Part shown: piece after piece, positions 3,371 through 58,450 of the stretch | How positions within the stretch are numbered: the stretch's first letter is position 1 | Layout: each line of letters starts with the position of its first letter | From: Ceratodon purpureus | Taxonomy: Eukaryota > Streptophyta > Bryopsida > Pseudoditrichales > Ditrichaceae | Direction: 5' to 3' | Assembly: GCA_014871385.1 (NCBI GenBank) | Contig: CM026426.1 | Coordinates: forward strand, 92,935,927-92,999,926 | DNA: 64,000 nucleotides | Made by a program: the position numbers and the translations under genes | The notes under the pieces: generated by a model | What the model saw: only the letters and a program-made list of their open reading frames with translations | The model's database searches: none | What the model was told of the DNA's origin: nothing

Positions 3371-3669
3371 CACGTCTTCACGCGCGGACAGTGAGGAAGT
3401 TCAAGGTAAGTTGCCTATCCATTGCTAAGTTGTTCTCTTGTGATTGTCTATTTCTTGTAGAGTTGGAGTAAATCGGCCATGGCAAAGTTGAGAGGGGTCG
3501 TTCAGCCATGGCCGCGAAGGTCCTCCAAGCTGTGAGGATTTTTGGGTAAGAACTAAACTACAGTAATCCGCAAGAATAATCCCCATTGCTTGTGGTCTTC
3601 CCTTTTTCAGCTGCCATGCGCGATCCCCCTTTCGTAAAACGTGTTGTTTTTGCACTACCAGCGCCAGGG

Positions 3670-5606: not shown

Positions 5607-6246
5607 ATTCCCACCTTAGATAGTTCTGTAGGCCGGGTTAGGGGTTTGCTGGCAGCGACTTTTGGTCCGGACTTTTATGGGCTACATTTCTTAAACTTTT
5701 CCGAACTTGAAAACAATTTGCCTCTGGACTGCCATGTCTCTTTGAAAGATATGGCATTCTTGTAACCCTTCCTTTTTATTCGCAACTGTATTTCTTCTTT
5801 ATTGTGGACTACTGACAGCAAGGGCTGCTCTTTAGCCGCCATTTTTTTTTTTTCTTCTTTCATTATTCGCCACCATGGTCCCTTTCAATTTTGGCCATTG
5901 TTGTTATTTACCATCTGCGACCTACTTCATCTCTTATGTACAACTGTTTTTTATTTTTATCTTGTTCTATCAGAATCGAGCGTGGTTCTTTTTTTATTTG
6001 CAACCTTCATTTTTTCGTCTTTGTTGGCACCAAGGGCTGCATTGTGCCCGCCATTGCCAGTTCAGAGCACCAGGTTCACGAAGGAGCCAACCTCTACGAC
6101 CGAAGTGACAAACTTTACATTCCTTCCTAATTGCAGTTTTATATTTGTCAAGTGCCAAACTCCATTTTGTGCCTCTGAAGGTCATGCGGTCTGTTGTTTG
6201 AAATTGTTTTTCTTTCCTTATTTTGGGCTGGCAGTAGGCTCCAGCG
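5607..6246. other. T-rich 3' region between convergent genes B1 and E
   Basis: Pyrimidine-rich, no convincing gene. Open frames here are T-rich low-complexity readings. Motif sites GCTGGCAGC (about 5651), CTGACAGC (about 5813), GTTGGCACC (about 6024) and GCTGGCAGT (about 6227) continue the series seen in genes A1 and B1. B1 and E converge on this segment, so both transcripts should terminate here. Confidence 0.4.
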
Positions 6247-12234: not shown

Positions 12235-13112
12235 AGGTTGGTATTCTCCGTTGTTTACTAGTTTACTTTCAGATTTGCTTCCAAAATTTCTCGCAATATC
12301 TTGCAGGAATAGAAGAAGCCTTCAACTTCTCAACTATGTACTGTTTTATACATAATGTACACTGGTGTCTACGTTTGGGTACTGACGGGTAGTCCGCAAA
12401 TGCGATGTTTCTATCCAGTTTTTTCAAGTGGGTTCTTTGCAAGGACGATATGAGAGCATACTAGAAGCGCTGAGAGTTTGCTCTGGTCTGTTTTGTGGAA
12501 GAGGCGCACTTAGGGAACTGCGGTCAGCTACACATGCCATTGTAAGAGCTTCTTCTATCCCTTGTATTAGTTGTATTGAAATTTATTGAACTTCAATTCT
12601 GCATAGTCTGAGAGTGTACTCTATGGTACAGATTGTAATGGACGACTTTAGATTGTAAGTGTTTGAACAATGTGGCCTATGTCATTTAGGTCGAGTGGAC
12701 CTAAATGCACGAACAAACAGGAGAGAACTTAATAATGTTCAATGATTCGTTAAGAACATGTTTAAGGAGAGATGATGATCATGTCATTTAGGTCGATCAC
12801 ACCTAAATGCAATAAAAAACAAGAAAGAAGAGTATACCACGTTTTTTGTATTTTTAGTAGTAACTATCCTTTACCTTTCTAAACCAAGGTTTTAATAAAA
12901 GGCAATGTCCAATCACATAAATTACATTCGGAAATTTGAATAACACAAAAAGTGTGTAAGACAGTGAGGCAAAAATAGCAGACGAGAAAATTTGACAAAC
13001 AAATCAATCGTTTTATTCGAAACATAATTACATTGAAATAACACAAACGACTCTTATAATCGTCTACATTGCCTGCATTAATGCTATACAGTACATACTA
13101 TCCTCTATATGG
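12235..13112. other. Non-coding 3' flank of D2 region
   Basis: No gene seen apart from palindromes P1 and P2. Moderately AT-rich; no tandem repeat stands out. Confidence 0.35.
12683..12809. repeat. Element D palindromes P1 and P2 (GGTC type)
   Basis: Two short palindromes: P1 at 12683-12707 has 10-bp arms CATTTAGGTC and GACCTAAATG around a 5-nt centre; P2 at 12785-12809 has 9-bp arms CATTTAGGT and ACCTAAATG. They sit downstream of the D2 gene in non-coding DNA. They are the leftmost of 17 related sites ending at 31876. Both are of the GGTC variant, also found at the right side of the series. Confidence 0.8.
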
Positions 13113-13373
13113 TTATGGAGTCCCTCTGTAAGCCTCAATTCTTGACTTCACAAATTCCTGTTGACGCTGACGTGTCCACGACAGTCCCTCAACCTGCATC
13201 ATTGGACTATCAAGAAGACGTTGCAACTTCTGTCTACACCTGTCACCAATGCTTGACTCAGGCAGAGATTGGCGACGGGTACTGGATGGTTTAGAGTGGG
13301 AGTGGCCGGACTTCCTTGCCCCGGATCCTGTAGTTGTTGATCGTAGCCTCGGCATCAGCAAAGGGGATAACAA
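13113..13373 (-). CDS. Possible terminal exon, basic and helical
   Basis: An 86-codon open frame rich in Arg, Ser and Gln, ending in a predicted helix (LQRLLDSPMMQVEGLSWTRQRQQEF). It lies 25 bases downstream of the D2 stop on the same strand and could be an alternative 3' exon of D2 or an independent small gene. No splice junction clearly links it. I recognise no domain. Confidence 0.25.
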   Translation of the reverse strand: MLSPLLMPRLRSTTTGSGARKSGHSHSKPSSTRRQSLPESSIGDRCRQKLQRLLDSPMMQVEGLSWTRQRQQEFVKSRIEAYRGTP

Positions 13374-13398
13374 ACTAGAGAACCGAAAACATGCCTAA

Positions 13399-14571
13399 TT
13401 ATGCTCTACGACTAATTGCCTCGTTCATCTTAGCGTATTGTTCACAGGTAGAACGGTCATCATAATACATTTTCTTTCCGATCGGACGCTCGGCCCTGAT
13501 TCTAGCGATTGTCCCCACAAAGTGGTGTAGGTCTACAAGATATGGCAAAAGTTTCGACAACAAAAATCTATCATCTGCGGCACTGGGTTTTTGGTTGTTC
13601 CAAGTGGAGAGTAAAAGGACATTGTGAGAATTATTCTGACAGTGCTTGATCGGGTTGTCGTCGATAAAAATGGTGTTGGCTTCGGAATATAGGCCATGAA
13701 ATTTACGAAAGAGACCATCACACATCGGCTTAAGGAAGATGTCCTTCTGAGTCCCGGGTTCCTCCATAAATACCGGACGACCTCGAAAATCTACGCCCAT
13801 AGGAACTCTCTGACAGTCCTCTTGACCTAGAATTCTGAGCGGATAGATAGGACAAATCGAACCGAACAGATAGTCGCAGATCATTTTTGTCGTCGAAGTC
13901 TTCATCGAACTCCAGACGGTTATGGTTGCGAACGTTGACAACCGACGAAGGAAATCAGCGCAATTGGGCCTGACACAAACAAGCTTGGGGCCCACGACTG
14001 CTGGCTTGGACGCTGAGTGGATGCTAAGGTCATGGCTAACGAATGATTGTCCAGCCCAGTTAGGAGTCTGGAGCAGAGTATTCCATTGAGGTCGAGGACA
14101 ACGTTCAACCAACCATTCTGAGGTCGCGTCGGGACAGGACTCAATTCTTCACTAGAACTTACGTCACATCCAGATGCCTCGCGCACCTGGAGAGGAAATA
14201 CCGATGACAAATGGACATTACTATATTATACTAGGACGGAGTTATACGAATGATACAATGAGGACAGTCGCAGGGCAAGTCAGTACCCAAGAAAACAGTG
14301 CAACGAGATATAATAATGGATGAAATACCTGAACATCCTCGGCTTGACCTTCTACAACATCCCGATCCTCCACAGGACCCATCGACCCTAATGAATCCTG
14401 ATCGTCAGGAATGACCTCTACGCACGTTGGCAAGGTAAGAGCACACTGGGCCGTGACATCTAAATCCATATTTGTGCGTACAGGCTCATCCGCAGTTTGG
14501 GCCATGACAACAACATCGACGATCGGAAGATCGTCCACTTCCTCATGCACTTCGTGACCTGGGCATTGCAA
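13399..14571 (-). pseudogene. D2: FCP1/HAD-like phosphatase, frameshifted
   Basis: Read on the minus strand: an acidic exon (about 14571-14329), GT-AG intron 14328-14187 in phase, then NVVLDLNGILCSRLL, which is HAD motif I in the DLNG form seen in plant FCP1/NIF-type phosphatases. The frame then shifts near 14040-14060 and continues as VVGPKLVCVRPNCADFLRRL, ITVWSS (motif II region), LGQEDCQRVP, and TIFIDDNPIKH (motif IV with paired Asp), ending at 13399. The order and spacing match an FCP1-homology HAD fold, which dephosphorylates Ser/Thr in proteins in known members. Because of the frameshift I call it a pseudogene, although a sequencing indel would look the same. Its neighbours on both sides carry element D palindromes, so it is likely element cargo. 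Confidence 0.65.
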
Positions 14572-14643
14572 GAGAACTATAGAATCATCAGAGAGTGATC
14601 AATGAAGCTGACATAGAAAGGATTGGTAAAAAAGTTGAACAGT

Positions 14644-14664
14644 TTAGCTCCAGTTGAGCTAAAT
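14644..14664. repeat. Element D palindrome P3 (AGCT type)
   Basis: Arms TTTAGCT and AGCTAAA around a 7-nt centre, in the gap between the end of the D3 reading frame (14742) and the D2 acidic exon (14571). Confidence 0.75.
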
Positions 14665-15732
14665 AGCCCATTTGTATTAATTACAGTCGCTTTGGTACAA
14701 AATGCACATTTCAGTGAACTACTCCGGTATTAACACCTCATCTACAAAATTCCGAGTTCAAAAAATCTAAGTTTGGGAGGGACCTGAAGATGTCTCGGGA
14801 GCATCTCCTGAGTCTGATTGTGGGAGGGAGAACGGGGTGGGCTTGGACTAGAGTCATGCATGACCTGGTCGGTGCAATGATGGATTGGCTCAGGCACTAA
14901 TGCACGACTCGGATCCGACTCTGGCAATTTCGCACCATCGGTAGGGGAGCCCAAAATCTCAAGTACTCGCGGAGTAGGTGGGGCGCTACCTATCGGCTGG
15001 ACGTTGGGCAGAACTGGACCCGCATTCGAGAAAATAGCGGCATTACCGATGCCTTGCAGAGCACCCCGCAGTGCCGCCTGCACGGTCCTGTCTATATCTA
15101 TGCTCTGCTTCTCCATCGTATCTATTAAGGATTTCTCCCTATCCCTGGACGCCTGCGGTTCTGCGAGAAGAGCTTGAATATCCGGAGAGGGAGCGGCTCT
15201 CCCCAACGGGGAGGCTTGCCGTGCTGGTGTGTTGACCCTCTTTTTCTTTTGTGCCAGTTTTCCAGTACTTTGCCCACCACCAGTCTTTTTCCCACTTCCT
15301 GATCCCAGCTCTGGTTTAGAACCCGGTCTCTCATCGTCCGTACACGTAATGTCGACCTCAGGGAAATTGAGTCTTCTCCCCACTCCACCTTCAGATGCTG
15401 TCTGACTCACCGGATTTGAAGGCGGAGCATTGCCCTCATTGCTGATGTCTGCAGCACTGGAGGAGGGGGTTTGTTCTTCGGTAGGGGCATCCTCCTCCAG
15501 TTCTACATCGTCACCCTCCTCCACAGCTCTGCCTTTCCCTTTTTGCACGGCTCTGCCATATTCCGGAAAGCGTTCCTTATCGACATAATATGCGTCGACA
15601 CTAAAATCGGTTGGGTCCAGAGTCAAACTAAGTGACTGTGCTTCGATCATATGAGACGAGTCACTATCATCCGCGACGACAAAAGCCGAGATCGAGAGCA
15701 TCTGAAAAAAACCGAAGGCAAGGTAAACAAGG

Positions 15733-15824
15733 TTTAGGTCGACTCGAGCTAAATCGTAGAAGTGTATGCATACACGGTCCATAGAATCAAAACAGTAGAA
15801 CGATTTAACTCGACTCGAGCTAAA
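15733..15824. repeat. Element D palindromes P4 and P5, inside a D3 intron
   Basis: P4 at 15733-15753 and P5 at 15804-15824, each 21 bp with 5-nt centres, arms TTTAGGTC or TTTAACTC paired with GAGCTAAA. Both lie inside the 139-nt intron 15702-15840 of D3, about 50 bases apart. Confidence 0.75.
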
Positions 15825-15886
15825 GTGTGGAAACACTTACCGTGGCAGCCAGTAGGGGCTTCGTTCTAGCATAGAGCTGATACACT

Positions 15887-16319
15887 TGTTAACCGGAGAT
15901 TCCTTAATCTCTCCTTCCTTAGTCTCCACTAGTTGTTGTACATTTTTTTCATCCCTATCCTCGACAGTCATCCAGTCGGCTGAATGAACTCTGTCGAAGC
16001 CGACTGGATGAATTCTATCGCAGCCGACTAGATGATTCTGTTAGTTTTTAGAGGGTTTAAGAGGCAGGTTTAGGGTTTTGGGAGATCATTCTACACTTGA
16101 GCAGGTAGAGTTAGAGAGGTCTGAGAGCTGTTAGGAGCTCATGTACCATATTTAGGGGCGGTTTTGACCCATTTTATGCAGTTTTGACCTCTTTTTGCAC
16201 TTGCATTGTACATTTCCAGCATTCTATGAGGGTTTGGAGCACTTAGTTTAGTTGGGTTTTGTTGGGTTTTGATGGGGTTGTGAAGGCTAGGGTTTAGTTG
16301 GTAAATCCTCCCTTTACCA
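15887..16319 (+). repeat. L1 left (5') LTR
   Basis: 433 bp, TG...CA bounded. Contains two to three AGCCGACT-GATGA phrases near 15970-16030; the right LTR has one more unit of this roughly 24-bp repeat, which explains the 23-bp length difference. Confidence 0.9.
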
Positions 16320-16336
16320 TTGGCGACCATGCTTTA
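16320..16336 (+). other. L1 primer binding site
   Basis: TTGGCGACCATGCTT directly after the left LTR. The complement ends in ...GGTCGCCA, i.e. a tRNA 3' end with CCA. The first 14 bases are shared with the primer site of the Ty3 element at 40317-49792. Which tRNA is meant cannot be decided here; an Arg-type 3' end is my best guess. Confidence 0.6.
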
Positions 16337-17517
16337 GTTTGTACCATGTGATCTCCTGCTGGTTGTAGGCTGTTCCACACATTAGAGAGGTCCTGAAGTA
16401 CACACATTAGGTCTGCAGAGGTGCAGCAGTGATAGTCAGGAGTGTTTAGGGGTGCTGAACTGCTGCTAGTGTAATTCCGAGGTGCTGAACAGTTACTGGC
16501 AAGGTGTGGGGAGTCACTGCAGTGTTAGAACCGGTAGGCAGAGTGCTGTCCAGCCACTGGCAGGGTCCCAAGACATCCCAAGTCCGGCAAAGACTGTTGC
16601 TGTAGAGAGGGCAGTGGCGGCCAAAGAGTTTCAGGTGTTTTCAGAGGTGGAAACATTGGTGCAGCGACGGTGGCAGTCCAGCACGTGTCCAGAGAGCAGT
16701 AGCAGCAGAGGCGGCTCTGTTGCAGGCTGGTGGGCGCAGGTGCTGTGAAGAGTTGGAGAGCTAGATTTTCCATAGAGTCAATCCTTGAGGACTGAAGGCA
16801 GTTCAAGATTTGAAAAAGGGGATAGGGCGTCTACAGGTCAGATCTGTACTTCCACTGTAAAAAAGGGCGAAAGGTAAGTAACCCGTAATTTTAGGATTTC
16901 AAATTTCAAATTTCAGATCCCAAATTTTAGGATCTTAAAAATTTGAATTTTGAATTTGGGGATCTCAATTTCGGACCTCGGTCGGCTCTGCGGACGTTGA
17001 TTTGGAGATCTAGGTCGGCGATGGGACGTCGTTTTTGGGGACGTCGGTTGACATTTGGGACTTGGACTAGAGGTTGGCCCATGTCAGAACAGTCTGGTAA
17101 TTTTGGTTGCTGAGTGCATTTGGGAAGATTCAGGGTGCTTTTCGTTTCAAGTAGTGTCAGCACTGTAACCACTGGACTGGATTTTCCAAGGGTCTGTACA
17201 CTATGAGAAAGGGGATAGAACCAGTTAGGGGCAATTTTGTAGAACTGCCTTGGTCTGTCTCTATTTGCTAGAAAAGTGTCTGTAAGCACTAATTAGGCCA
17301 CACAGCCGACAGCTGGGTCGATGAGTGCTAAAGTGGCAGGGACTACAAAAACATACGGGAAGGAGTCAAGTATTGGTAGCTACCTAATTGGAGGAGGCCA
17401 ACCAGAGCCGACCACAACACATAGGAAGTAACAGCCGCCAAGACTAGGAAGAAATACAGCCGACTAAATGCAGCCGACTGATTACTACAAACACTGTCAG
17501 TATCAGCTGTTCACACC

Positions 17518-18900
17518 ATGGAGGAAGGTGACGTGACCGATCTAAGGGCTGAGATACAGGCGCTCGAGAGATACTTGCTCTGGCTAAAAAGTGCGGAACT
17601 ACCACCTTCGATTGACTCCTGCAACGTCGTCAGCACGGACAATTTACACACCACGGAGGAAGGTGAGCTGAACGATATCATCAGGGCTGACATACAAGTG
17701 ATGGAGAGAGACCTGCTCCGGTTGCAAAGTGAGGAACGAGCAGCAGCGCGGAATCGAGCAGACGTCCATGGCCGACTTAGCTCACCGGGCAGTGCAGCTA
17801 AGCAGGTGGGGGAGCTTATCGACATGGAGGTCAAATATGATATTTCATCATCAGATGGGAGGACAAAAGAGAGACAATTTGAAGAGGGAAGGCAGTCCGA
17901 AAAAGGGGATAGACTAAACAGTCATTCTGACGAAGCCAACATTCCCTGGAGATATCACGACAGGAGAAGAACTACGTCATTTAGAGGGGATTTCTCTACT
18001 GTAGTGGATGACTACAGTACCTTTAACAAGGAAGGATGCTAGATGCAGTAAACCTTTGCAGAGCCGATGCAGTGGCCAAGTCTAGCTACTTGCAGAGCTA
18101 ACTCAGGAGCACAACCAATGCAGTGGCCAAGTCGAGTTACTGGGAGAGCCGACTTTGAAGCGGAGTTGACCCAGTGGCCAAGTGGGGATATTGGCAGAGC
18201 CGACTTGGGAGTAGAGCAGCGATTGTTGCTGAGCCGACCGACATCACCAGTCTGCCTGCCAAAAACTCCAGAGACTCTGCTAGCAACATTTCAGAACCTG
18301 AGGCAGAAATTGAAGGAGACAGAGGACCAATCAGTTCAGAAACAGGTTCCTAGTGACCAACCCAAAGGCGCCCGTGGCAAGAATGTTCACTTCCTGGATG
18401 ATTTCAGATTTAAGGTTGAGTGGGCACAGGACAAGGAGGACCGGCTAGCAGTGGAGGCAATCAAGGCCGACCTGTTTGGTAAGCGAGAGGAGGCCAGACA
18501 TCAGCAGACTCCACCATCTAGAGGAGCATCAACACACCAGTGGCATACAAGGCCGCAATGGCCGGTAGAGCAGCACCCAACACTGCAGGAGACAGTGTTC
18601 AACTGTCGTGTTTGGGAGGCAGCACAAGAGTTGGCAATTCAGCATTTGGCAGCCCAGCAGTCGGCAGCGCAGCAGTTGGAAGCTCAGGAGTTGGCAGCTC
18701 AGTCGCAGGCAACTCGACACTTAGCTGCAATGCAGCGGTTTCAGGAGCGTCGACGCTTGCGTGGACTCTTCAGGAGCGTTTCCTGGGACCTTGCGAGAGA
18801 CCCGACTACGTCTGCCAACTCGGTCGAGTTGCCTCCACTGGCTGACCTTACTAAGCCGACTGCGGTTGTCGGCTCGATCGAGCTGCCTGTAATCGGATGA
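17518..18900 (+). pseudogene. L1 internal ORFs (gag-like, unknown)
   Basis: Two open frames in the same phase, 17518-18042 and 18067-18900, separated only by TAG and TAA. The first has a two-fold internal repeat (MEEGDVTDLRAEIQALER and TEEGELNDIIRADIQVMER), predicted coiled coil. The second opens with three tandem QWPS...GRA units and ends with a Gln/Ala-rich helix (LAAQQSAAQQLEAQELAAQ). No zinc knuckle or capsid signature is visible, so gag-like is assigned by position only. If the two frames were once one, the protein was about 460 residues. Confidence 0.45.
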
Positions 18901-19620
18901 CCTTGCAGAACCAACCGCCAATCACATTTCACCAGATTTATCTACTGATCCAAAGGTATAGCCTATGGTGGTTTTTGGCGTTGTAGATATTACTCTTGGT
19001 CTCCTTGTGATTCCTGTACAGGTGAAGGATTCCACCTTTGAGGACGTACTTCTAAAAGAGGGCTCTAGAGTCAGCTTGATTACAGAAGAGGAGAAGGTGA
19101 CGTTACAAGCATTACATAATGCCATCGGATTCAAGCAGGGGCTGCTATTTGTCAACACTGCATTGAGGGAGACAATCTTGGCAGTAGAGCAGACAGCACT
19201 ACAGCGGAGCATTTTCACTGCCCGACTGTTCTAGATAGTGAAGTCCCAATTCCAAGAGGCAGCTCCCTAGGTGGCTTTTGCAAGCCAACTCCTTTACAGA
19301 GCCGACCGCCACAGCCTTCTTCAGAGGGCTCTAAGGATGAATATCAGGGCGCCACTCCAGATTCTACGAAGCCGACTTTTACGCAGCCGACTTCTATGGA
19401 GCCGACTGTTTCAAACTTAAGCTCCACCATTGGGCCCAAGGAAGAGCGACACCACCAACGGATGACTTCACAGCAGGAGTTAGCATTACTGCTAGTTAGG
19501 CAGGGATTCCATGTTTTTGATACCAAGGATAGTTTTCTTCACCATCGTTTAGTAGTTTAGTCAGTATTTCTTACTTACCACCCTTTCTCTTAGTCTCCAT
19601 GCGTTCTGAGGGCAGAACTA

Positions 19621-19634
19621 CCGGAAAAAGGGGA
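19621..19634 (+). other. L1 polypurine tract
   Basis: GGAAAAAGGGGAT immediately before the right LTR. Near-copies of the AAAAAGGGGATA phrase also appear inside the element (about 16814, 17207 and 17899), which is unusual for a single priming site. Confidence 0.6.
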
Positions 19635-19637
19635 TAT

Positions 19638-20093
19638 TGTTAACCGGAGATTCCTTAATCTCTCCTTCCTTAGTCTCCACTAGTTGTTTTACAGTTTTTC
19701 ATCCCTATCCCCAACAGTCATCCACTCGGCTGGATGAACTCTGTCAGAGCCGACTGGATGAACTCTGTCAGAGCCGACTAGATGAATTCTATCGCAGCCG
19801 ACTAGATGATTTTGTTAGTTTTTAGAGGGTTTAACAGGCAGGTTTAGGGTTTTGGGAGATCATTCTACACTTGAGCAGGTAGAGTTAGAGAGGTCTGAGA
19901 GCTGTTAGGATCTCATGTACCATATTTAGGGGCGGTTTTGACCCATTTTATGCAGTTTTGACCTCTTTTTGCACTTGTATTGTACATTTCCAGCATTCTA
20001 TGAGGGTTTGGAGCACTTAGTTTAGTTGGGTTTTGTTGGGTTTTAATGGGGTTGTGAAGTCTAGGGTTTAGTTGGTAAATCCTCCCTTTACCA
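19638..20093 (+). repeat. L1 right (3') LTR
   Basis: 456 bp. Differs from the left LTR by one extra copy of the AGCCGACT-containing repeat near 19745-19800 and a scatter of substitutions (for example CAGTCGGCTGAATG against CACTCGGCTGGATG), so the insertion is not brand new. Confidence 0.9.
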
Positions 20094-21472
20094 ACACTGC
20101 CCCCCGTATTTGCAGAAAGTGTCGTGGACATGGGGGTAGAACTCCATCCTTAACTCCGATGGATACAGCGCGTACTTCCTTTCGTTGAACTTCCTGTTGT
20201 CCTTGTACAGTGGGTGATCCAGCATTCTGTACTCGCTCAGAGGTTCTGGCGGTGACACTTCGTTCTCAAGTAAATTTTCATCAATGAGAAACAGGAATTG
20301 GATGGATTCCAACGCGATTCTGCTCTTTGGGGGGTGTCCACCGAGTCGCTCGTTAGGAGCGGGGAAATATTCAGAATTGACTTTCTTGCGACCACTCAAG
20401 GTGCTACGCTCGACCCACGTTCGTACCTGGGCGAAGTCCTCATCGTCTCCGCAAATCAGAAGCCAGTGTCGAACATCGTTAAAATGGGGCTGTCCATAGT
20501 CATCGACCATATTGAAGAACTCCATGAAGAAGGGATTGTGCCAAAAGTATATGCCTCGTCTTGTAGGTTGGGAGGAACCGGAAGTTGATGATTTCGAATG
20601 TGAGAACGTCGCACCACAACCTCCATACATCGGAGGGCCAAGATCCGAAGGCAAGTCGAGGCTCCCTGATGAATGGGAGAAACCACATCTGAGCTGATGG
20701 ACTCTGAAACCCATCTCGAACCTAAAGGAAGGTTCTAAAGAACTCAACCGCATATGGGGAGAGATCCTTGGCCGACTTGTTGTGGAACTGTGTAGCTCTT
20801 TAGTTAGTCTAGTATGAGTCCGGAATACCCCAATCAAGCAGAACGTGCTTGGACTCCTTGGAGACATGGTAAGCCTTCTTGAAATGCTTCCAAGCCGGTA
20901 CATCAAGGACGCCTCTCTTGATTAGATGTAGGGTCGGTTTAATCTTGTTCAGCTCCTCCTGAGCTACAGCCTTACGTTTTCTCTGCTCTACCCACTCTTT
21001 GACCGTGTAGCAGTCCTCCAGTACATTCGTATTCTGCTTAATGACAACCTTCGGATATGTGTACTTCCGACTTGGCCAAAACTTATGCAGGATGTGCTTA
21101 CAGAGCCTTCGGTGATCCGCCTCTAACAAGTTCCCGAGCCATTTGAAGAACTCCCTCGGAAGCGTTCCATCCTTGTCTGAAACGAACCTCGTTTTCTGAT
21201 GAAATTTCTTGTGAGATTCTTCGGTGTCGTGATCTATAAGTCCACTACATGCCGCAGACGCGATCACCTCCTTCCACAGGTCCGAGGTTTCATCACTGAA
21301 TGTGATGATCTTCAGCTCGTTTGTTAGGGAGATATTGTTTTTCCCTCCCTTCTTTGCTACCAGGGCTTGATGCTTGGCCACATTGATCATTGCGAAACGC
21401 TCCCTGATTGCTTCCACAAAGTTCTGCATGCACACAGAGAACTACCTTAGATGATGCTTTCACGCAATTCAC

Positions 21473-21561
21473 TTTAGCTCGACTCGAGCTAAAGAATGTT
21501 AAATTTACCAGATCATTGAAAACAAAGAAGATTATATACATTTAGCTCGACTCAAGCTAAA
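21473..21561. repeat. Element D palindromes P6 and P7, inside a D3 intron
   Basis: P6 at 21473-21493 and P7 at 21541-21561: arms TTTAGCTC and GAGCTAAA (P7 has AAGCTAAA) around GACTC-type centres, 68 bases apart. Both lie in the 152-nt intron 21424-21575 of D3. Confidence 0.8.
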
Positions 21562-22913
21562 CTCCAAGCATTTACGTCGTAAGTCTTTGAGGCTCGATTT
21601 TTTCTCGGACCTGTAGTCCTAGACTCGGTTGCACCAGCGGCGGCATGTTTCGGTTGCAGCTTACCATACTTTAGCCACACTGCCTTGGCGGCAATGATAT
21701 TGCTCGCCCAAGTTGGCTTAAAGGGTGCCAGATGGTTCACTCGATTATAAAATGCTGAGATCTTCCGCAGCTTGTCATAATCATGGGTCCAAACGATGTA
21801 CACGTCCCACTTCTTGAAGTCCCTCACCAACTCCTCACTGGCCTTATCCTCGATGAGAGATTTGGACCCCGCAACGTTGTATTGCCCATTGATGATCGAG
21901 AATGTACAGCCCCTTAGATCCTCTTCTTGTCGTGGTCTGAGCTCTGTGTCTCGCATCACACACAGGGTTTGCTTTTGTGTCCTATCCGGCATGTTGACCA
22001 AGTAATGCTTCATCTCCTCCATGCCCCGCTTCTCATATGCACGGATAGTCCAATGGGCCGGTGCGGGCTTGCACCGCGTGACGTCCACACTAATCTTCTT
22101 CGGTTGCCCCTCCTTTTTGAAGACAAACACCTCCTGACAATCACCGAAGAAACCCTGTAAATTCGATTGGCACTATCAAAGTCCAGGATCTCTCCAGCCT
22201 TGTTCTCCTTCGGAAGTTCCACGAGAACAGAGTTCAAACTTGTTGCTAGGTCCTCCGCAGATAAGAGCAAGTCTTTTTTGGGCTTGAGCTTGTCAGTCTT
22301 CTTCTCGAGGCTTTTTTTCTTCAATGGTGAGAGGGGTGTGGGAGTTGTAGAAGCGGCTCGGCTTTGCAAAGGAACTATTGCACTGCCTCTACTGCGTCCG
22401 GTCTGTTGGCTCCTCATTTGGCTCCCGGTTGCTGTCACTCCAGAGATGTCTATATGAGATTTTCCCAAGGTTAGCCTAACCTTTGCCTCCGTTGCGGCGA
22501 GCGTAAGGCTATTGACAACATTCCTCAGTTTCCAAGCTAGAGACTTTGCCTGGAGAGTACGTCCATCCTTTGTAGCCCATTTCTTGTCTATTACCTCTAG
22601 CCTCAATGGCTTCACTATCTCATCGAAGCAAGAAGAGGATAGACTTTCCATTAAGGAAATCGGGTCGAAGAGGTTCTCTGCTACGTCTACTACTATGGTG
22701 AAGATGTATGGATTACTCCCCATAGATGAGCAGAGGATCTTTATGATCTCTCTCTCCTTATGGTCAAACTCGGTGACCTTTGTTTCCATGTCGATGACCA
22801 GGGGATCTTGGACTACATTCTTAAAAATGGTAGCGAAGGCTAGATATGGGGTGTGTGGAACCCATCGCAATGTCAAGCTAAACTGTAGAGCTTTCAGCAT
22901 GGGCCCCTTGCAG

Positions 22914-22934
22914 TTTAGCTCGACCAGAGCTAAA
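22914..22934. repeat. Element D palindrome P8, at the 5' edge of D3
   Basis: Arms TTTAGCTC and GAGCTAAA with centre GACCA (one overlapping base). It lies directly upstream of the first recognisable D3 exon, probably at the end of an intron, since CTGCAAG just after it could serve as acceptor. Confidence 0.75.
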
Positions 22935-23384
22935 CTGTTGGGATGTCATGTGTTATATTTTGTAATTGAACCACCATTTAGCAATGAGGGATTGATTACG
23001 CAATTTGGAGAAATATTTAGTACTTGTCGGCCATTTTTTACTCAAATCCCTCCGTTGTAAATCTGTTGAAACGTGTTCTGCGTGTAGAAAAGAAGGCATT
23101 TTGAAAGGTCAGAACACGAATCTAAAAATGATACAAATATTTCACATTGTATCACACTCGTTCTGGAAAAGGCGGAAGACAATCGAATAAAGTGCTTCCA
23201 ATAAGCCCAATACTCACATACTAAGGCGACCGTAACTATATATATCCAAATAAACCTATGTTGAAACTACAACACAATGCAAATGACATTGATATGTAAT
23301 ATACAATACATGAAATATGCTATTGCAACCATCTTATGATACACACATGCACTGACATTAACATGTAGAGAACCACACATTAAA

Positions 23385-23600
23385 TCACAAACAGAAACAC
23401 ACATACAGAAAACGAACACAATTCAGAATTCGAAACCAAACAGACACACATAGAATACGAACACAATTCAGAATTCGAACATAAACAGTCAAATACAGAA
23501 TACGAACACAAGACAGAATTCTACCACAGACAGACACAAACATAACACATAAAAGATACGAACACAAACAGACACACACAATTCAGAATTCATTAGAAAA
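23385..23600. repeat. Degenerate repeat of ACAGACACACA and ACACAATTCAGAATTCGAA
   Basis: Five or six alternating units of ACAGACACACA and GAATACGAACACAATTCA, 35-60 bases long with variable spacing. Non-coding minisatellite-like array. Confidence 0.6.
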
Positions 23601-24599
23601 AATACAAGATGCTAATCCTAAACTAGCGAGAACATGCCAAAGAATTATAATTGAAACAAAAAAAAAACAAAAAAACTCAATTGAAAGGACCCTAAATTGC
23701 AAAAGTCACTGGAATTCAACTAAAAGAAAAGGAAACGAGTAACGCGATATGTTACGCACCTGAAAATTAGCGCAGCAGCGTTTTCAACGCCTCCAGAAAC
23801 CCCAATCCAAATCGCACGCCTCCACAGTGCACCGAAGAAGTTCGCACAAGAATAGAAGAACCGAAATAAACCTAAACCCTAAAGACGAAGGAAGAACCGA
23901 GCACAAGAACATGTAGAAGAGAATTGGAGAACAACTGCAACAAGACCAAACCGCAGCGCCAAACACCTGGAACTCCCTCCGCGCACGAACACTTCAAACC
24001 ATCAAGAGAAAACCTAAACCCTAGAGACCAACACTACTTCAAACAAACAACTCACACCCTCTGGAGGAAGCAAATGGAACAGAGTACGCCCCCAAAACTC
24101 GCGCGAAACACACTGTAGTGCACAGTCTCTCTCGGAATTCATTCCCGCCACCACCAAAAAACAAGCGCAGACACAGACACACACAGAAAAACGAAGGAGA
24201 AAACACCTTCGTGAACGAGGTTGCGGTGGGGAACAGTTCCTCCTCCTCGCACGGGCCCGTGACCGCGCCGCCAAATCGCGTGGCCCCGTCACCACGGGGT
24301 TCAATGCCCCGTCCCCGCGGGTTAAAATTCTTTTTACTTTTTTTTACCTTGTTATTTGAAATTTGGTTCAACCAATACTTTTTTGGTTTTTTCAAATATA
24401 TAAACGGAACTTAATTTTCTTATTCTTTTATATATATTCCAAAAATAAAATCCTCATTTTATGGATTCACATGAATTGTCCTACATCAATGGTCATCATT
24501 GTTGTAGTATTAATATATGATATTATGTAACAGTATAGACACTTGAGCAAGCAAAAAATCTAGGTAGGCAAATTATGAACAATTTTTAGAGAATTGAAA

Positions 24600-25275
24600 A
24601 TTTTATATTTATTCATGAGAAGCAAATATTTAAAATTTCGTAAATATTCATTACTTTCTAATAAGGTGCAAATATACTACTTTTATGATATATTCATGAG
24701 AATCTAATATTTTTGTACGAATTAGCTTCTTATTAGAGAAACTTAATTTGTATGAAATTAAAAATATTCATGAGTAGCAAATATTCTACTTTTTTTAAAT
24801 ATTCATAAGAAGCAAATATTCGCACAAATTTATTACTTTATAACAAGAAAGTAGAATATTCGGTTCATGTGATATTTTAACTTCATTAATATTAATTGAA
24901 TATGAGACGTCTACAAATTTAATTAACATAATAATCCTTTCAGATATATGAAGTTAATATTTGTACAAAGACGAATTTAATTTGAATACAAAAATTTAGA
25001 GTTTAAATAATAGTTTGTAATTATATAACGAAAGCATCAAATATGAATACACTATTAGCAATGAAATTTAATTTACTATACTCTAATTGGGTACATATTT
25101 ACGTAATTGTTATCATCATATTATTCTTGAAATACATGTTAGTATAATACACAAAGTACATTGTTAAAAATAATAATATTAAATTATAGAATTCAATTCA
25201 TTTATTATGGCAAATTATTTACATTTTTAAGAAGATTGAATTTTTTATACTTATTCATGAGAAGCAAATACATAA
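24600..25275. repeat. Dispersed ATTCATGAGAAGCAAATATT phrase in AT-rich block
   Basis: At least five imperfect copies of ATTCATGAGAAGCAAATATT, at about 24613, 24703, 24763, 24804 and 25252, the first four spaced 40-90 bases. The block is over 75 percent AT with no coding potential. Confidence 0.55.
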
Positions 25276-25846
25276 ACCATGGTATGCCTTGTATGATTGG
25301 CATGTAAATTACATAAATCTTATGAAATTCATTAACGTTCTCACTTGACTAATATTCGTACAATTTTATTACATTCTAATAAGAAAGTGGAATATTTGGT
25401 TCATTCATATAATTTTAAAAAACAAAATTCATAATTCATCGATTCAAACGATACGTCTTAAATCAATGATCATAATTATAATTGTAGTTTTAATATATGA
25501 TATCGAGAAAGGCTCTAGTTGCTTGTGCAAGCATACAATCCCATCAATCAATTCTTTAATAATGAATTAGAATGCCACATTGAAGTAAATCTAGACTTTC
25601 AAAAGTCCACATCGGTCAAAGTCCCGTTACCGACTGTAATCAAAGTCACCTTCGTTACTTTAGAACATTCGGCCTCCTGCCCGAGCCCCTTCATAAGCAT
25701 AAGTTCCTTTGCGCGACGAAACAATTGTTCCATTCTTAGTTTCTCTTCTATTTCATCTACTTCTAGTTCATTTGCCGTGATGAGGAAGGCGGGCGGTGGT
25801 TTTAGGGTGTCAAGTTACCCGGAAGCCGGTTGTTTTCCCACAATGA

Positions 25847-26104
25847 GTGGAGGAGCTTCGTCCGTGGTTTATGGCGGTGGAACGCGCCCGTAGTCGCAGC
25901 GTAGCCATTCTTGCGTGGAACCGCATCGCACGCCTAATGCAGCCAGGTGTGGAGTGGGATTGGACTATTGCACACGGTCTAGAGCAAATGGAAATTATGA
26001 ACGCTTCCAACATCAAGTTTTCCCTCACCTCCGGCGAGGTCTTCTGTATGGCTGATTCTAATGAGGAGGGGAGCGGGAATTTGGGGAGCCCACCACATCA
26101 GTGA
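25847..26104 (+). CDS. Weak ORF in element D core
   Basis: Eighty-odd codons opening with GTG rather than ATG (an overlapping frame has ATG at about 25779). The peptide contains VAILAWNRIARLMQPGVEW, of normal composition, but I recognise no family and see no paired splice sites. Listed only because it is the least unlikely coding stretch in the D core. Confidence 0.2.
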   Translation: MEELRPWFMAVERARSRSVAILAWNRIARLMQPGVEWDWTIAHGLEQMEIMNASNIKFSLTSGEVFCMADSNEEGSGNLGSPPHQ

Positions 26105-27194
26105 CGAGGTGAAATGTTATCTCCTCGTAACCCTTAACCTAGCCCTTAGTTCGATGTTTACATAGTAATAAATTACGGTTGTTGTATGTCTAGCTAGAAT
26201 TCCATTGCCTAATGCTGAGTTTGTGGTGAGTGTCAAGAGGATGAGTCCCTGCTTTTGACCTGCACTTTTCGATTTTATACCCTAAACATCATACATTGTG
26301 ATCTTCTTCTTCTCTTTGCTCCTGAACTTGCAGGCATCTTCGATACACTTTTGTTGTTTAACTTCTTGGTGCTAATCAGCTCAGATATAGGAAGGGGACT
26401 TCACTAAGTAGTTAACAGGACCGTTATATCATACGATATTTGGCAACCATAGATGTAAAAACAAATCACTTTCATCTTTTGGTAACTCTCGCCAAAGGTG
26501 TCCCCCGTGTGGGTTGTAAACTATTTTTGGAATGGAATGCCTTCAAAATAGAGTTGTTTTGAATAAGAAACAGAGTTTAATTTGATGCTTTCATATTTGT
26601 ATAATTTGTATCCTAATATTTCCATGGTTTAGAATAAATTCAGTAGTAGCAAGTCTAGAAAATAATCAATACATTAAAATTCATACTTCCCTAACTTTGA
26701 TTCTTAGATATCCAAAAGTCAAAAACTAATGTAAATCTATAAATTTATATGAACCAAAATATCTTTTCATATCTTAAATACTACAAACATATAATTATTC
26801 TAAATATCAGAAACGAAAAAACAAATCTACATCAAAGTTGGCGAAATAAACACATTATGAAATAAATAAAAACATAAATAAACATACATGAATATATATA
26901 CATGATAATTATATCTCACTAAATGTTTAAAATAAAGAAATAAATCTAGATTTAAAAATATATCTGCCTAGGTCTATCAAGAACTATTCATGAACTCACA
27001 TATATTGATTTGATTTCCTACATCATATATAATAATGAAATTGAGCAAAAACACATACTCTAGTACATGGAGATATGAACATTTGCAACGATGTACTTCC
27101 CTGTATAAACCTTAGTCACAAAACTCAAATAGGTTCAAAAACTTTTGAATTAATTTTATTCCATATACAAGAAATTTAATGTCCCTAAAAATGC

Positions 27195-27286
27195 CTAAAC
27201 CTTGTACCCTAAACCCTTAACCCTCGACATGAGATCCTAAACCCTAAACCCTGAACCCTATATCCTAAACCCTGAACCCTGATAGA
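27195..27286 (-). repeat. CCCTAAA telomere-like tract
   Basis: About nine CCCTAAA, CCCTGAA or CCCTTAA units in 92 bases, i.e. the plant telomere repeat in reverse orientation relative to the tract at 10731-10795. Degenerate and interstitial. Confidence 0.6.
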
Positions 27287-27894
27287 CGATGATAAGTTTG
27301 GGGCCGAAAGTCAACATTCTGTCAAGCGCTATGACGTGTCCAACCCATCCCATTTGATACAATTAATGCACCAAATATTTCGCATCTGCATCTATGTAAA
27401 GGGCCGAGAAGTATGGAAAGTTGTATTTCCCGCGCTTGCTCACACCCCCAGATGTGGATGGACGAATGGTCATGCATGATTCCCGCCTATTTTCAAAACT
27501 GAAGCGGCATGAAAACGGTCACACGTTAGAGAATGACCTCTGGAATCGTCCCCGCTCGAAGTCTTTTCTCTACTCACTTGCTTCTCTCGCGTGTAGGAGC
27601 TCTCATCGCTTACTTGGAGGTCGTTGTTTTCTAGACGGAAGCTGTATTGCGCCGTTTCTCTTATACGTCTTCTCTTCAGTTTTCTCCGATCATCAACACA
27701 CATCATTGATTTTTGGTTGTTCTATGCTTGCGATTGTTGCAATTCTTGGTGTATTAGCAGTGTCTTTCTTTACTACTGGGAAACGTTTGAGAGCGGAAAC
27801 TGTCACTGTACTCTGAGTCTGCGACTCTGAGTCTGCGTACTCTGAGTCCGTCGATGTGAGTACCTACTAACGCGCCGGTTTTTGCGGAGTACAG

Positions 27895-28011
27895 TTTAGC
27901 TCGACTCGAGCTATACTGCGTGGTCCTGTGGATGCCATGCAGTTTAGCTCGAGTCGAGCTAAACTGCGCGGCTCTATGGATGCAGCACAGTTTAGCTCGA
28001 GTCGAGCTAAA
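27895..28011. repeat. Element D palindromes P9, P10 and P11 upstream of D1
   Basis: Three 21-bp palindromes at 27895-27915, 27943-27963 and 27991-28011, exactly 48 bases apart start to start, each inside a repeated phrase CAG-palindrome-CTGCG. P10 and P11 are identical, with 8-bp arms TTTAGCTC and GAGCTAAA around GAGTC. They end about 95 bases before the D1 ATG, a position suited to a promoter or protein-binding array. Confidence 0.85.
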
Positions 28012-28106
28012 CTGCGCCAGGGTTATGGTCTTTGACTTGCAGATGAATTATCTACAAGGAGTATAATATATTCTCATAAAATTGGATCTGTTGCATTCCA
28101 GGTACA

Positions 28107-30943
28107 ATGAATTACTCCTCAGATGACGAGGTACCGGTTGAAGCGCCCTTAAACCCTGACCTTCCAGACTTTGTGGTTGTATCCTCAAGACAATGGCAGA
28201 ACAAGACTGTAACAATATGTAGTGACGACAATATCCCGTTAGCAGAGGGTTTGATCCGGAACCCACGGTCCCGCTTGGTATCTGACACGGTTGGTCCCCT
28301 TGGTGATTCCGTTGTCGTTGTCCAGGTATCACGTTCGTTACTCGAAGAAGAGTCAGAAGATGATTGGAGGTTCTCCTTCAAAACGTGGCCTATCAGCCAC
28401 GTCTATCTGGATGGAGTTAGTCTGCAGCACCATAGTCAACATGATGTTTATAACCGTTGGGTTGCGGAGCGTAACCGATCCCTGGGTGATTGTACATGAT
28501 CGTATGATAACTCCTCTAGGAATACCCCCCCACCTATATCACGTCACGCTGAGTTTTTGATGACCCAGCCATCTATCAACTCTGTAGCGGCAAACACGTG
28601 CTGCGCTCACCTATGCGTCCAACACTATCCCAGAGATAAAATCTCTACTCTACGGTCGCGTATGTACAACAAGACCACAGTGCAGTTCCGAAACCACATA
28701 AAATTGACGTGCATAGACACATCCACAAGAATTCAGCGGGGAGGATTGTGGTGACTCTGGAGGGCATAGATGTTTGCCCCTTCGCCTGGATGAAGATTAT
28801 AGGAGTGAGCTCCACTACATTTTATAGAAATGCCAAGTATGCTGCTGCTGGTTTCGAGGCTCAATTTCACGGTAATACTGGTTTACGTAAACCTCGAAAT
28901 CACACAGTGGTAGCAACTGCCGTCCTAGGGGCCATCCTTGACAGGCATGCCGACCACATGCCCCACAAGAGTCGTGTTCTGCCTTCAGGGGAGACAGTTG
29001 TAGCTGAAGTTCTGCCTTCTTGATTCAAATGGAAGGAACAGATTCCAATCCTCGATGAGCATTTAGCGGACTGTGGATTGCCTCCTATGTCCGCTTCTAA
29101 CTTGAGCAAGATCAGGAGGCTTAGCTATCCAGAATATTACGCCAAACGGGCAGGAGACAACTTCGCTCGTTGCTCAAAATGTGATGAGCTCCAGTCCCAG
29201 AAGAAGTTGACGGTTACAGGATCTCAGGCGTCCCTGTTGTGGTCTAAGAAAATGAGGCTGCACAATGACTCTGCAATGGCGCATAGGGACTTGTACTACC
29301 TAAATCGATTCAGGTCGAAGGCTACTCCTCATAAAGTTCTTACAATTATGCATGACAAGATGGACCACTCCAAGACAGCATCGCCGGCCTTATCCCACAA
29401 GGTCAAACACTTAGACGGTCTCATGAAGCTTCCTCTCGCTATCACCGGAATGCTTGCTCATGGGCATGTGGACCAACGTTACGCCCATTATGGCCTTGAA
29501 ATTTACTCACACGATGCTAATTACACGGTTGGATCGTTTGCGAAGCTCCTTCGGGACCTTATGACACCCCCTAAATCCACCTCTAGGGAACTCTTTCAAG
29601 AGAATCCGTCCCACCCATTGTATGCCGCGCTTTTGCATGGTTCAAAGATGTGTTTGGATCCTCTTGGCCCTCCTCCTGAGGTTCCTGTTGCTGCTAAACC
29701 CTTGCCTCCCATTCTTAACGTCCAAATGGATAACGCTGTCAGCGATAACAAGAATAGATTCGTATTTTCATTCTGGTCCCTATTAGTCGCGAAGCAGGTG
29801 TTTCGCGAAGTGTACGTGAATTTCATGCTGGTTGGCCATACTCATGACGATATTGATGCCCTTTTCGGGCGATGGAGCATGGCTTTGCGGAGGGAGGACT
29901 TCCCCATAGTACCTCTCCTCATGAAGTCCTTCATGAAAAATGAAGCAGTACCAACAATTCCGCATCTTATTCAGGAGGTCCCAGATTTCAAGAAATTCAT
30001 TGCGGAGTGGATGCTTGATGGCGACGATACGTTAATGGGTCACACTAAAGCTCATCAGTTCAAATTCTATGCAGATTCTTCACGATGCCTAGTCATGAAG
30101 TATAAAATCTTCTGTCACGACGACGACTGGTTGCCAAAAGGAGATGGTTGTGGCATCAAGTTGTGGAAGGAGGATTCTGAAGGTCGATCTTTATGGCCCC
30201 GTGGTGTTCCTGGTGCCGTGGCGCCTCGCGAGATGCGGCACCTGCCTGATGTGATTAAGGGCTTGTCGGGTTTTGTAGATCATTGGGAGAGGCTATCTTC
30301 GGATTCAGTTCAGTCCAGAAGAATCTATGAGCCACTCTCATACTATTGGAACGATGTTAAAGAGGCTCTTTCCATCCCCTTTGATGCAGTCTCCACCTTG
30401 GAGCATGGTTTTTGGCCATCCACTTGGCTCGCTCACTCCGTCGAAGACGAGTTTCAGGAAGATGGAACTTTGCGCGAGGAGTTCGCAGAGGATGATCACT
30501 TTGTTGGTCACAAACGAGATCGCCCAGGACCGTCATTCCGTGTTGCGCGAGATCTTTTTGCTGGGTACTTCTTAGCATTACGACCCTGCGATGAAGACGA
30601 TCGTCCTTTCTGGCTTGCGAGGGCCTTGACTGACCCTAATTCGAACCCTGACCTCCCGAACACGCTCCAAGTAGAGTTCTACCGCCCAATTTCCCGAGAT
30701 GAAAATGTTTTGAAATTCTATACCGGCTGGGATGTGGATGGGAGACTTCGTTGGATAGTTGAGAAGGATGTACCCGAGTCGTGGCAGAGTACTGATGCAG
30801 TCATAACAGCTTGGAAATCCAAAGTTAAAAAAAATGTCAACGAGCGGGGCGTTGGCAAGGATCCAACGCTGAAGATTCCACTCAAACAACTGAACATTAT
30901 AAAGGCCTCCTTGGAGAGATTTGTTTCTCCGGATTCTGAATAA
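28107..30943 (+). pseudogene. D1: DUF7869-like putative transposase
   Basis: Starts ATG 28107 (MNYSSDDE). The frame continues past a TGA at 28497 to about 28730, includes a Cys motif (NTCCAHLCVQHYP), then shifts frame to the GIDVCPFAWMKIIGVSSTTFYR block, has a second TGA at 29021, and is then open for over 600 codons to 30943. The open part has HDKMDHSKTASP, LPLAITGMLAHGH, IYSHDANYTVGS, then VQMDNAVSDNKNR and FMLVGHTHDDIDALFGRWS, the signature of the DUF7869-type domain with Asp residues placed as in an RNase H-like DDE core. That family is widespread in mobile elements; a transposase role is inferred. The C-terminal third is mixed charge with no named domain. Two TGA codons and one frameshift mean that this copy is inactive unless the indel is a sequencing error. 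Three palindromes precede it and six follow it. Confidence 0.75.
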
Positions 30944-31075
30944 ACATGTAGCTTTCAAGTTGGTAGTCTTGAAGTTCTGAATTTAGTCAGATCACTTATA
31001 TTTGTTTGAAGACGACTGAACTGAATTTCGTTCGTCCCTTCATCCAACATTATGTTTTCTAGACAAAGGTAGATG

Positions 31076-31876
31076 TTTAGCTCGAGTCGACCTAATCAGT
31101 TATAGCGTATTAGTTCTAGCGTATTTATGTATTGAATTCTAGCAAATTACATATATTTTGTTGGAGGGAACACTACTTAAGTGCTTCAGTCCATTCCTTA
31201 TTTATCATCTGTACCACATTATAGGCAGCAGTTTAGGTCAAGGCGACCTAAACTGCATTTGGTGTTGAAGTTCGTACTTTACGAGTGCACAATACCAACA
31301 GATCACCTATAATTCTTCTTGTAGATTTTTACTTAGTACCCTAAAGCGTTGATTCTATATCATATGTACTGCCACTTAACAGCCATTTAGGTCCAGGCGA
31401 CCTAAGCGACATCTAGCGTTGAAGTTCCTAGTTTGGATTTCTGAAGTAGAGCCGATAACATACATTTGTTGGCATGGACTATACTGAAGTCCATATGTTC
31501 TTTGATTGCATATCATACTGTATAAACTGTAGGCAGCTATGTTCGTTGAACAACTTGAATGTTTGTAGAGGTCTGAAAGGGCCCGTCACAGATTCAACAT
31601 TTAAGGAGTGTCGACCTAAATTGTATTTCCACACATATATATAATATAAGTTTGCCCAAGATATCCGTTGTATCCATTTCTTGTTATTCGCATGATGTTC
31701 ATTTAGGGTGGTTCGACCTACCTTGTATTTTTTCATATATTTCTAGTAAACCATCCGGTTCTTTCATTTCCCATTACTACTGTGTGATCATGTCCCAAAT
31801 TCATGGAAATTGCTTATAAGCTTTTCCTTGCCAAGTATGGGACCATTGTGCCCATTTTAACTCGACCTGACCTAAT
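31076..31876. repeat. Element D palindromes P12 to P17
   Basis: Six sites at 31076-31096, 31232-31252, 31386-31406, 31600-31620, 31702-31722 and 31856-31876. P12 is half AGCT, half GACC type; P13 to P17 have the GGTC/GACC arms (for example TTTAGGTC and GACCTAAA) and become more degenerate rightwards. Spacing is about 100-215 bases. They mark the right side of element D. Confidence 0.7.
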
Positions 31877-32504
31877 GCATTATTTTGGGAGATGATAAAT
31901 CTCCCAAAATAACGAATATGGTGTTTTAGAAAACAAACGTACACAGTAGAATCACATAAGTAATTCTTTTACCTACTGTTAAAACATAGATTCAGTTGTT
32001 ACAGAAAACAGTTTCTCAGAATCAATGTCTCCTCAAATCCTCATTGTATTAGTGCTCGCATATACGAAGGTTTTGCACAAAATAATACCGAAGTACATAA
32101 AGTATTCAGCAAACATTGCGGAAACCAGAAACTTGAAGTGCTACAAAATGTTGGAAAAGGTGTCGCTAAACCTAATTATAAACCAGAACTACGGAATAAA
32201 CTCATCATCACTTTCTCAAGCACTGTTTAAAATGAATGGGCAGATACTAGGATTATATGTTTTGCAAGGACTAGATGAGGCACTCGAACTACTAGAAGAA
32301 ATCTGAGCTAACACTTCTGTCAGGCCTTCAATGTAGCAAGGAAGTCTATTAGATCTGCTCCGTGACCGGTATTCTCTCCTAAGATGTCTCAGATTCAGAC
32401 TTCGACTGCAAAAAAGAATTAAATGTTAGTTACAAAGAACAGAGTCAAAATAATACTCAAGAGCAGTAGAGAAAGAAGGATGAAATTGAAAACAAACTTA
32501 ATCA
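31877..32504. other. Spacer right of element D
   Basis: No gene supported; a 93-codon frame at 32025-32306 is low in informative composition. No further D palindromes occur, so the D boundary is probably near 31.9-32.4 kb. Confidence 0.35.
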
Positions 32505-57868: not shown

Positions 57869-58450
57869 AATGTCAAACCTATTTGTGCATGGCTCGTGAA
57901 TTGATTTCGGCATGTTGTTTTCTTGCTATGTGTTGAACTGGAGATAATTGTTTACTCATGGGACGCAATGTCTAGTTTAGTTAGAAAATATTTTTTTAGG
58001 ATCAAGAGGGAATGGCAATTCGATGATAACCCAGCCAGTTCTAGGTGGAAACACCCTTCCAATGAACTCACAAATCTGATATGGGCCACATTGCACGGAT
58101 AAAGTCTTTGAGCAAAATAATGTTGTTGTTGTGATGTAAAGGTCTTGGGCGGCCGAGAGGAGTTCGAATTGGAGCAGCTGGGTCTTACGTTTTCAAGGAA
58201 ACTGCTAGGTATGTTTAGAAATCTATTACCTTTGTTGCCACCGCCTGCCTTCAGTAATGTTGTGGTTGCAGAATGTCAAACCTATTTGTGCATGGCTCGT
58301 GAATTGATTTTTGCATGTTGTTTTCTTGCTCTGTGTTGAATTGGAGATAATAGTTTACTGATGGGATGCAACGTCTAATTTAGTTAGAAAATGGGTGTTT
58401 AGGATCAAGAGGGAATGGCAATTTGATGATAAACCTATTTGTGCAGCAGA
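57869..58450 (+). repeat. Duplicated 5' flank of gene B3
   Basis: The segment from AGAATGTCAAACCTATTTG (57869) to GGCAATTCGATGATAA (about 58030) is repeated about 400 bases later (58270-58435), and a third partial copy forms the start of the B3 reading frame itself (58448). The B3 initiator region (MSNLFVQ) is therefore the same text as the repeated non-coding leader. Confidence 0.65.

Follow-up and report, generated by a model that had tools for sequence, protein, structure and literature searches.

The window analysed here, a 64,000-nucleotide stretch of the moss Ceratodon purpureus (assembly GCA_014871385.1, contig CM026426.1, forward-strand positions 92,935,927 to 92,999,926), contains the remnant of a large DNA transposon with two genes on opposite strands: D3, encoding a DUF7869 transposase, and D1, encoding a protein with a predicted ParB-fold domain and an FCP1/NIF-like phosphatase part. 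Short palindromes recur throughout the element and are read below as candidate docking sites for an element-encoded protein. The window copy belongs to the first of three related families (family 1) and was compared with a fuller copy on chromosome C1 (the C1 copy). The features, in window coordinates, are as follows.

12665..31925, plus strand: remnant of a family-1 transposon copy (blastn to the C1 copy)
12685..12807, unstranded: two left outer palindromes of GGTC type (both at ≤1 mismatch in 14/14 left-end loci)
13399..14148, minus strand: FCP1/NIF-like phosphatase exon, C-terminal part of D1 (Pfam PF03031, E=1.2e-10)
14643..14663, unstranded: palindrome in a D1 intron (pattern match and exon model)
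14742..15836, minus strand: open frame with D1 exon 3, low-complexity, its upstream end extending into intron 2 (open reading frames and exon model)
15733..15824, unstranded: two palindromes in D1 intron 2 (pattern match and exon model)
15886..20096, unstranded: long terminal repeat (LTR)-type retroelement within D1, without palindromes (missing from the C1 copy)
20096..21441, minus strand: D1 exon 2 region, overlapping open frames in the window copy (alignment to the C1 copy and homologues)
21473..21561, unstranded: palindromes in D1 intron 1, two here against three in the C1 copy (pattern match and exon model)
21552..22945, minus strand: open frames with D1 exon 1, predicted ParB-fold domain (structure searches on the relative P0137)
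22914..22934, unstranded: single palindrome, remnant of the D1 promoter array of 9 sites in the C1 copy (pattern match, C1 comparison)
27895..28011, unstranded: D3 promoter array, 3 units of 48 bp (pattern match)
28107..30943, plus strand: D3, DUF7869 transposase gene (PF25273, E=8.8e-42, for the protein at 29024-30943)
31076..31876, unstranded: right outer palindromes, variously of hybrid, GGTC or half type (two or more in 29/30 D3 loci)
31899..31925, plus strand: right terminal inverted repeat ATCTCCCAAAATAACGAATATGGTGTT (flanks diverge beyond the repeat)

With up to 3 mismatches allowed, the pattern TTTAGSTC-N5-GASCTAAA was found 17 times in the window, always between 12685 and 31876; 8 matches are exact, 6 have one mismatch, 2 have two and 1 has three. 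Shuffling the whole window (n=100) gave a mean of 1.00 matches and a maximum of 4, and 17 was attained in 0/100 shuffles. The palindromes are real and far above chance, which bears out the description in the first-pass annotation of 17 copies marking a single element of about 19 kb. Across the 362-Mb genome the pattern has 4201 exact sites, a count that is the same for each strand because the pattern is palindromic, and the reversed control pattern has none. The unit had been described as 8-bp arms around a 5-nt centre, a form common to families 1 and 2, but within family 1 the symmetry is that of a 21-bp dyad, TTTAGCTCGA-S-TCGAGCTAAA, with 10-bp arms and one centre base. The sites that could be placed had also been said never to lie in an exon, which applies to 16 of the 17; the weak site at 20948 (2 mismatches, with a C1-copy counterpart at 3) falls inside a D1 exon, under an exon model derived from the C1 copy on splice signals and homologues, without transcripts. 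The weak site at 31600 consists of a single good half-site only. The proposed zoning into inner and outer variants broadly holds but is imperfect, 15733 and 31076 being hybrids and 31856 half GGTC-type.

Element termini were defined by comparing the C1 copy, the window and 30 D3 loci. The full element in the C1 copy is a DNA transposon of 18,938 bp with 27-bp terminal inverted repeats beginning AACACCATATTCG. The right terminal repeat was exact at 27 of the 30 D3 loci (window included), one base off at 2 and absent at 1, and 4-bp target duplications were found in all five copies compared at both ends (ACAA, ATGA, ATGA, AGGT, ATTT). The left end occurs 168 times in the genome at up to 2 mismatches, and at least 69 copies of D3 at 94-100% identity, including that of the window, were scored from 1341 candidates. 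A 14-bp hairpin, TTATTTTGGGAGAT-n5-ATCTCCCAAAATAA, is located at the right terminus of the window copy (31880-31912); its exact form is missing at the left end of the C1 copy.

The copy in the window is degenerate: its left end is gone, its D3 frame is broken, its D1 gene is interrupted by an insertion and its arrays are shrunken. Homology to the C1 copy begins at 12665 and extends to the right terminus at 31925; roughly 135 bp at the start of the element, left terminal repeat included, are missing. The insertion, earlier taken for an L1 element without sites, is indeed site-free, but its direct terminal repeats (about 430 bp, 91.5% identical over 458 columns) rule out an L1 origin and are of LTR type. 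A mid-element segment (25141-26626) is inverted relative to the C1 copy, and a telomere-like CCCTAAA repeat run (27194-27282) lies upstream of the D3 array. Outside the element, recurring open frames with a common FLRAC motif were observed at 3580-5619, 50318-51433, 58433-59374 and 62878-63357.

The D3 frame, interrupted in the window copy, is open over 955 aa in many other copies, and fold searches identified its product as a DDD transposase with an RNase H fold. Sola1 transposons are characterised by a 4-bp target duplication together with a DDD transposase of RNase H fold; the moss element displays both and conforms to Sola1 by that definition only. Using DUF7869 as a search term, no paper was found in the open-licence literature. 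In D1, encoded on the opposite strand, the first HAD motif reads DLNG, the usual form being DxDx(T/V), and PF03031 was found in the same protein in 10 of 16 annotated Ceratodon D1 relatives (1291-1587 aa). The open frames with exon 1 exceed the exon at both ends, overlapping the sites at 21541 and 22914. A ParB N-domain fold was obtained on the predicted model of one D1 relative only, P0137.

In the C1 copy, 33 sites were counted with up to 3 mismatches allowed. Each of the two promoters has an array, with 9 sites upstream of D1 (spacing mostly 52-53 bp) and 9 upstream of D3 (47-48 bp). Six sites were located in D1 introns (3438; 4528, 4599; 6058, 6126, 6157), 8 in the outer parts, where they were GGTC-type, hybrid or half-type, and one weak match fell within a D1 exon. 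The outer sites at 1410 and 1528 are probably intronic as well. All 24 inner sites were of GCTC/GAGC type, one with an arm mismatch, and zoning is clearer in this fuller copy than in the window copy. Upstream of D3, 27 of the 30 D3 loci had arrays of 7 to 10 sites, spaced by about 47 bp. The D1 promoter array was observed in only one family-1 and one family-2 copy.

Palindrome clusters had been expected to coincide with homologues of the element genes, and this linkage was recovered for D3. It was sampled with the 50 distinct exact sites that head the C1 listing (of 4201 genome-wide), which cover part of one chromosome. Forty-nine of them fell into three clusters, each encoding a DUF7869 homologue; among these, C1:18062500 stands 21 kb away from the other members of its cluster and was assigned by nearness only. 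The fiftieth, C1:15616582, stood alone.

Related families carried different dyads. Family 2 (C1:18078001-18098000), with D3 49% and D1 29% identical to family 1, had the dyad TTTAGCTCAC-W-GTGAGCTAAA, arranged upstream of D1 at a 41-bp period, upstream of D3 in 26-bp steps (mostly with one arm-end mismatch) and downstream of D3 in a 54-bp array of hybrid type, unlike the inner arrays. A palindrome was also present in its D1 intron 1, and no FCP1/NIF part was found within C1:18078001-18098000. Family 3, of which one copy was found (D3 55% identical), had nine TTCAACTCGA-N-TCGAGTTGAA dyads upstream of D3, of which 4 were exact, 4 had one mismatch and 1 had two; no left end was found in the 20 kb searched. 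Judged from these sequences, both arms vary jointly across the three families while the 21-bp length and the single centre base are constant. Variant zoning recurred in family 2 and on the metagenomic contig described below, as had been anticipated, though with other variants and in less regular order.

In most array sites the 10+1+10 dyad was perfect, and its symmetry often continued to 29 bp. In 224 array sites from the D3 loci (up to 3 mismatches), each arm position was at least 98% conserved, while the centre base was C in 133, G in 90, A in 1 and T in 0. Close copies were compared in 35 non-independent pairs, filtered from 351 possible pairs of 27 arrays for equal site number, equal spacer lengths and at most 6 spacer differences. 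Centres differed at 48 of 280 positions (6 of the 48 from one C-to-A change in L021), arms at 14 of 5600, spacers at 76 of 6405 and upstream DNA at 41 of 3150. Three loci with too few sites (L005, L025, L034) were left out of the arrays, and L016, which together with L015 resembles one copy on two contigs, is outside the 35 pairs. Spacers were found in both orientations; those of type D, for example, were plus in 35 cases and minus in 21. Because spacer types were defined at 84% identity, chance may account for weak inverted matches, but type D had inverted matches at 100%. Joint inversion of spacer and centre as the sole source of C and G centres was rejected, L019 and L024 having identical spacers and different centres. 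These patterns are read as a dyad that may be under selection, in arrays where local inversion or conversion is frequent. From the C/G centre flips and two-way spacers, the D3 promoter arrays (L005-L034) could be an inversion hotspot.

A blind scan of 11.3 million prokaryotic contigs returned one exact match, on CADCWO010000071.1 (L053), a 4.3-kb contig from a cyanobacterial bin. The DUF7869 protein encoded on it is 67% identical to P0001; three sites lie upstream of that gene and three weaker ones (1-3 mismatches) downstream. The contig is probably moss transposon DNA binned as a cyanobacterium. In viral contigs the palindrome scan returned 0 stretches, and a search for D3 relatives gave 52 pattern stretches, of which 0 were confirmed. 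The intron-1 palindrome was also present in metagenome relatives of D1. Among 44 examined, the exon-1 end could be located in 30, and 20 of these had a tail reaching intron 1, of which 8 contained a translated palindrome; P0143, whose exon-1 end is not locatable, contained one as well, and in P0143 and P0153 the peptide was consistent with a T centre. Of 180 proteins, 11 matched the palindrome peptide pattern, each within about 70 residues of an end, and these stretches can be read as flank or intron.

Taken together, the palindromes would be recognition sites for an element-encoded homodimer, most likely D1, docking across the 19-kb element for transcription control or anti-silencing (probability roughly 0.58). 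The D1 homodimer, bearing the ParB fold and, in family 1, the FCP1-like phosphatase domain, would recognise the dyad and dock at its own promoter array and at that of the transposase, as well as at one or more intron sites and both outer regions. Once docked, it might cover or organise the element, setting transcription or fending off host silencing, in a mode modelled on KorB and VirB on plasmids and on VANC on VANDAL transposons. Two observations favour a binding role: a 21-bp dyad is retained in three families although both arms change jointly, and the predicted D1 fold belongs to palindrome-docking proteins. That fold, together with the sites in D1's own promoter and introns, also favours D1 as the binder. 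The proposal of the first-pass annotation that an element-encoded protein binds these sites is therefore supported by family-matched dyads and the predicted D1 fold, from which binding itself, and the choice of D1 over D3, are inferred. A stronger version, a eukaryotic ParB-parS-like system in which the transposon protein would load on the 21-bp palindromes of its own family, spread along the 19-kb element and block silencing or set transcription, dyads and protein co-evolving, is put forward only tentatively.

Several observations weigh against D1 docking. The ParB assignment comes from one model built on a shallow alignment (mean predicted local distance difference test score, pLDDT, 47.7; about 50-90 in the domain), for which a Foldseek search of PDB gave no row at E 0.001. 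No ParB was found among Pfam matches of 25 D1 relatives at E 10, nor for D1 in PDB profile searches or NCBIfam. The GxRR motif contacting cytidine triphosphate (CTP), whose arginines in VirB are R93 and R94 according to excerpts of PMC10653881, reads GQHS in D1, and most D1 relatives have INGQHS at the equivalent place, judged by eye. Family 3, known from a single copy, has palindromes and yet no D1 was found in 20 kb upstream. A lone site at C1:15616582 (position 3583 of L059), a 28-bp extended palindrome, lies outside any element seen, with no element homology within 6.5 kb. The site layout shared within family 1 is not independent evidence, because the copies are so alike (94-97%).

TNPA-type proteins bind subterminal repeats, and the D3 transposase could likewise bind the palindromes, assembling a transposition complex and repressing its own promoter. 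In line with this, each of the three families has sites upstream of D3, family 1 also has them in its two outer regions, and in family 3 palindromes stand at D3 and D1 was not found nearby. Most sites of the C1 copy are nevertheless internal, in D1 introns and at two promoters. Moreover, families 1 and 3 have different palindromes but identical terminal 12 bp, GAATATGGTGTT, in the repeat that D3 would be expected to target, as expected with two proteins for two signals; this favours D1 as the binder and makes D3 an unlikely one, though the strongest of the competitors. A host transcription factor, whose operator arrays the element would have acquired to drive its genes, would account for the sites at promoters, but 49 of the first 50 listed C1 sites cluster with D3 homologues (one by nearness only) and arms that differ between families fit one fixed host factor poorly, so that this origin seems improbable.

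A role as RNA or DNA hairpins, in splicing control, as small-RNA precursors or in cruciform nicking, would draw on the perfect 21-29 bp inverted repeats in introns, on the two-way spacers and on a centre base that varies between close copies far above the flanking bases. Against it, many sites are found at promoters or in the outer flanks, the family-specific arm sequence is retained beyond complementarity, and a free loop needs no S centre, although S was found in 223 of 224 sites; a hairpin function is accordingly given little credence. Least credible is a functionless satellite spread by recombination within the element: arrays do differ in unit number and orientation, but arms change about fivefold less than spacers and single dispersed intron sites persist across lineages.

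Compared with known systems, docking by D1 has partial counterparts. CACTA/En-Spm elements have multiple TNPA sites near their ends, CACTA termini and 3-bp target duplications. The moss element similarly has multiple sites for a putative element protein near its ends, but its termini read AACACC...GGTGTT, its duplications are 4 bp and its sites are mostly internal. The comparisons that follow refer to excerpts of the papers cited. VANDAL transposons of Arabidopsis, bound by VANC proteins, carry dense element-specific short noncoding motifs in number-variable tandem arrays that differ between families (PMC5735166, PMC10398659), and the moss sites share each of these traits. The VANC21 motif, YAGTATTAY, is however non-palindromic and lies in one orientation, unlike the 21-bp moss dyad, and VANC is of another protein family. 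KorB and VirB load on palindromic sites and affect transcription, KorB at a distance (PMC11790492, PMC10653881), and resemble D1 in its predicted fold. The core of the KorB OB oligonucleotide, TTTAGCGGCTAAA, has outer TTTAGC/GCTAAA in common with family 1, possibly by chance, but the OB element is 16 bp against 21 bp in moss (PMC11790492). Unlike the ParB family, D1 lacks the conserved CTP-contact arginines, and a partition role is not suggested. Excerpts of PMC4455052, PMC10294476 and PMC5512222 added nothing on such sites.

The closest layout is that of Sola1-1_Ec32 of Ectocarpus, a giant 21.5-kb DNA transposon with a ParB-like gene opposite the transposase, as predicted for D1 in the moss element; its authors suggested that ParB-like proteins can bind and modify their own transposon (PMC12477816). 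There the ParB-like domain is fused to a DNA methyltransferase, while in moss D1 it accompanies an FCP1-like phosphatase. ParB-like accessory proteins of giant transposons were thus already noted; in the excerpted text of PMC12477816 their bound targets are left open and no cognate sites are described. Within the open-licence literature, what the moss element adds is a set of candidate docking sites that are numerous, family-specific and short. A single genome holds three variants of the dyad, each next to the transposase of its family, which makes co-evolution of protein and site testable in moss.

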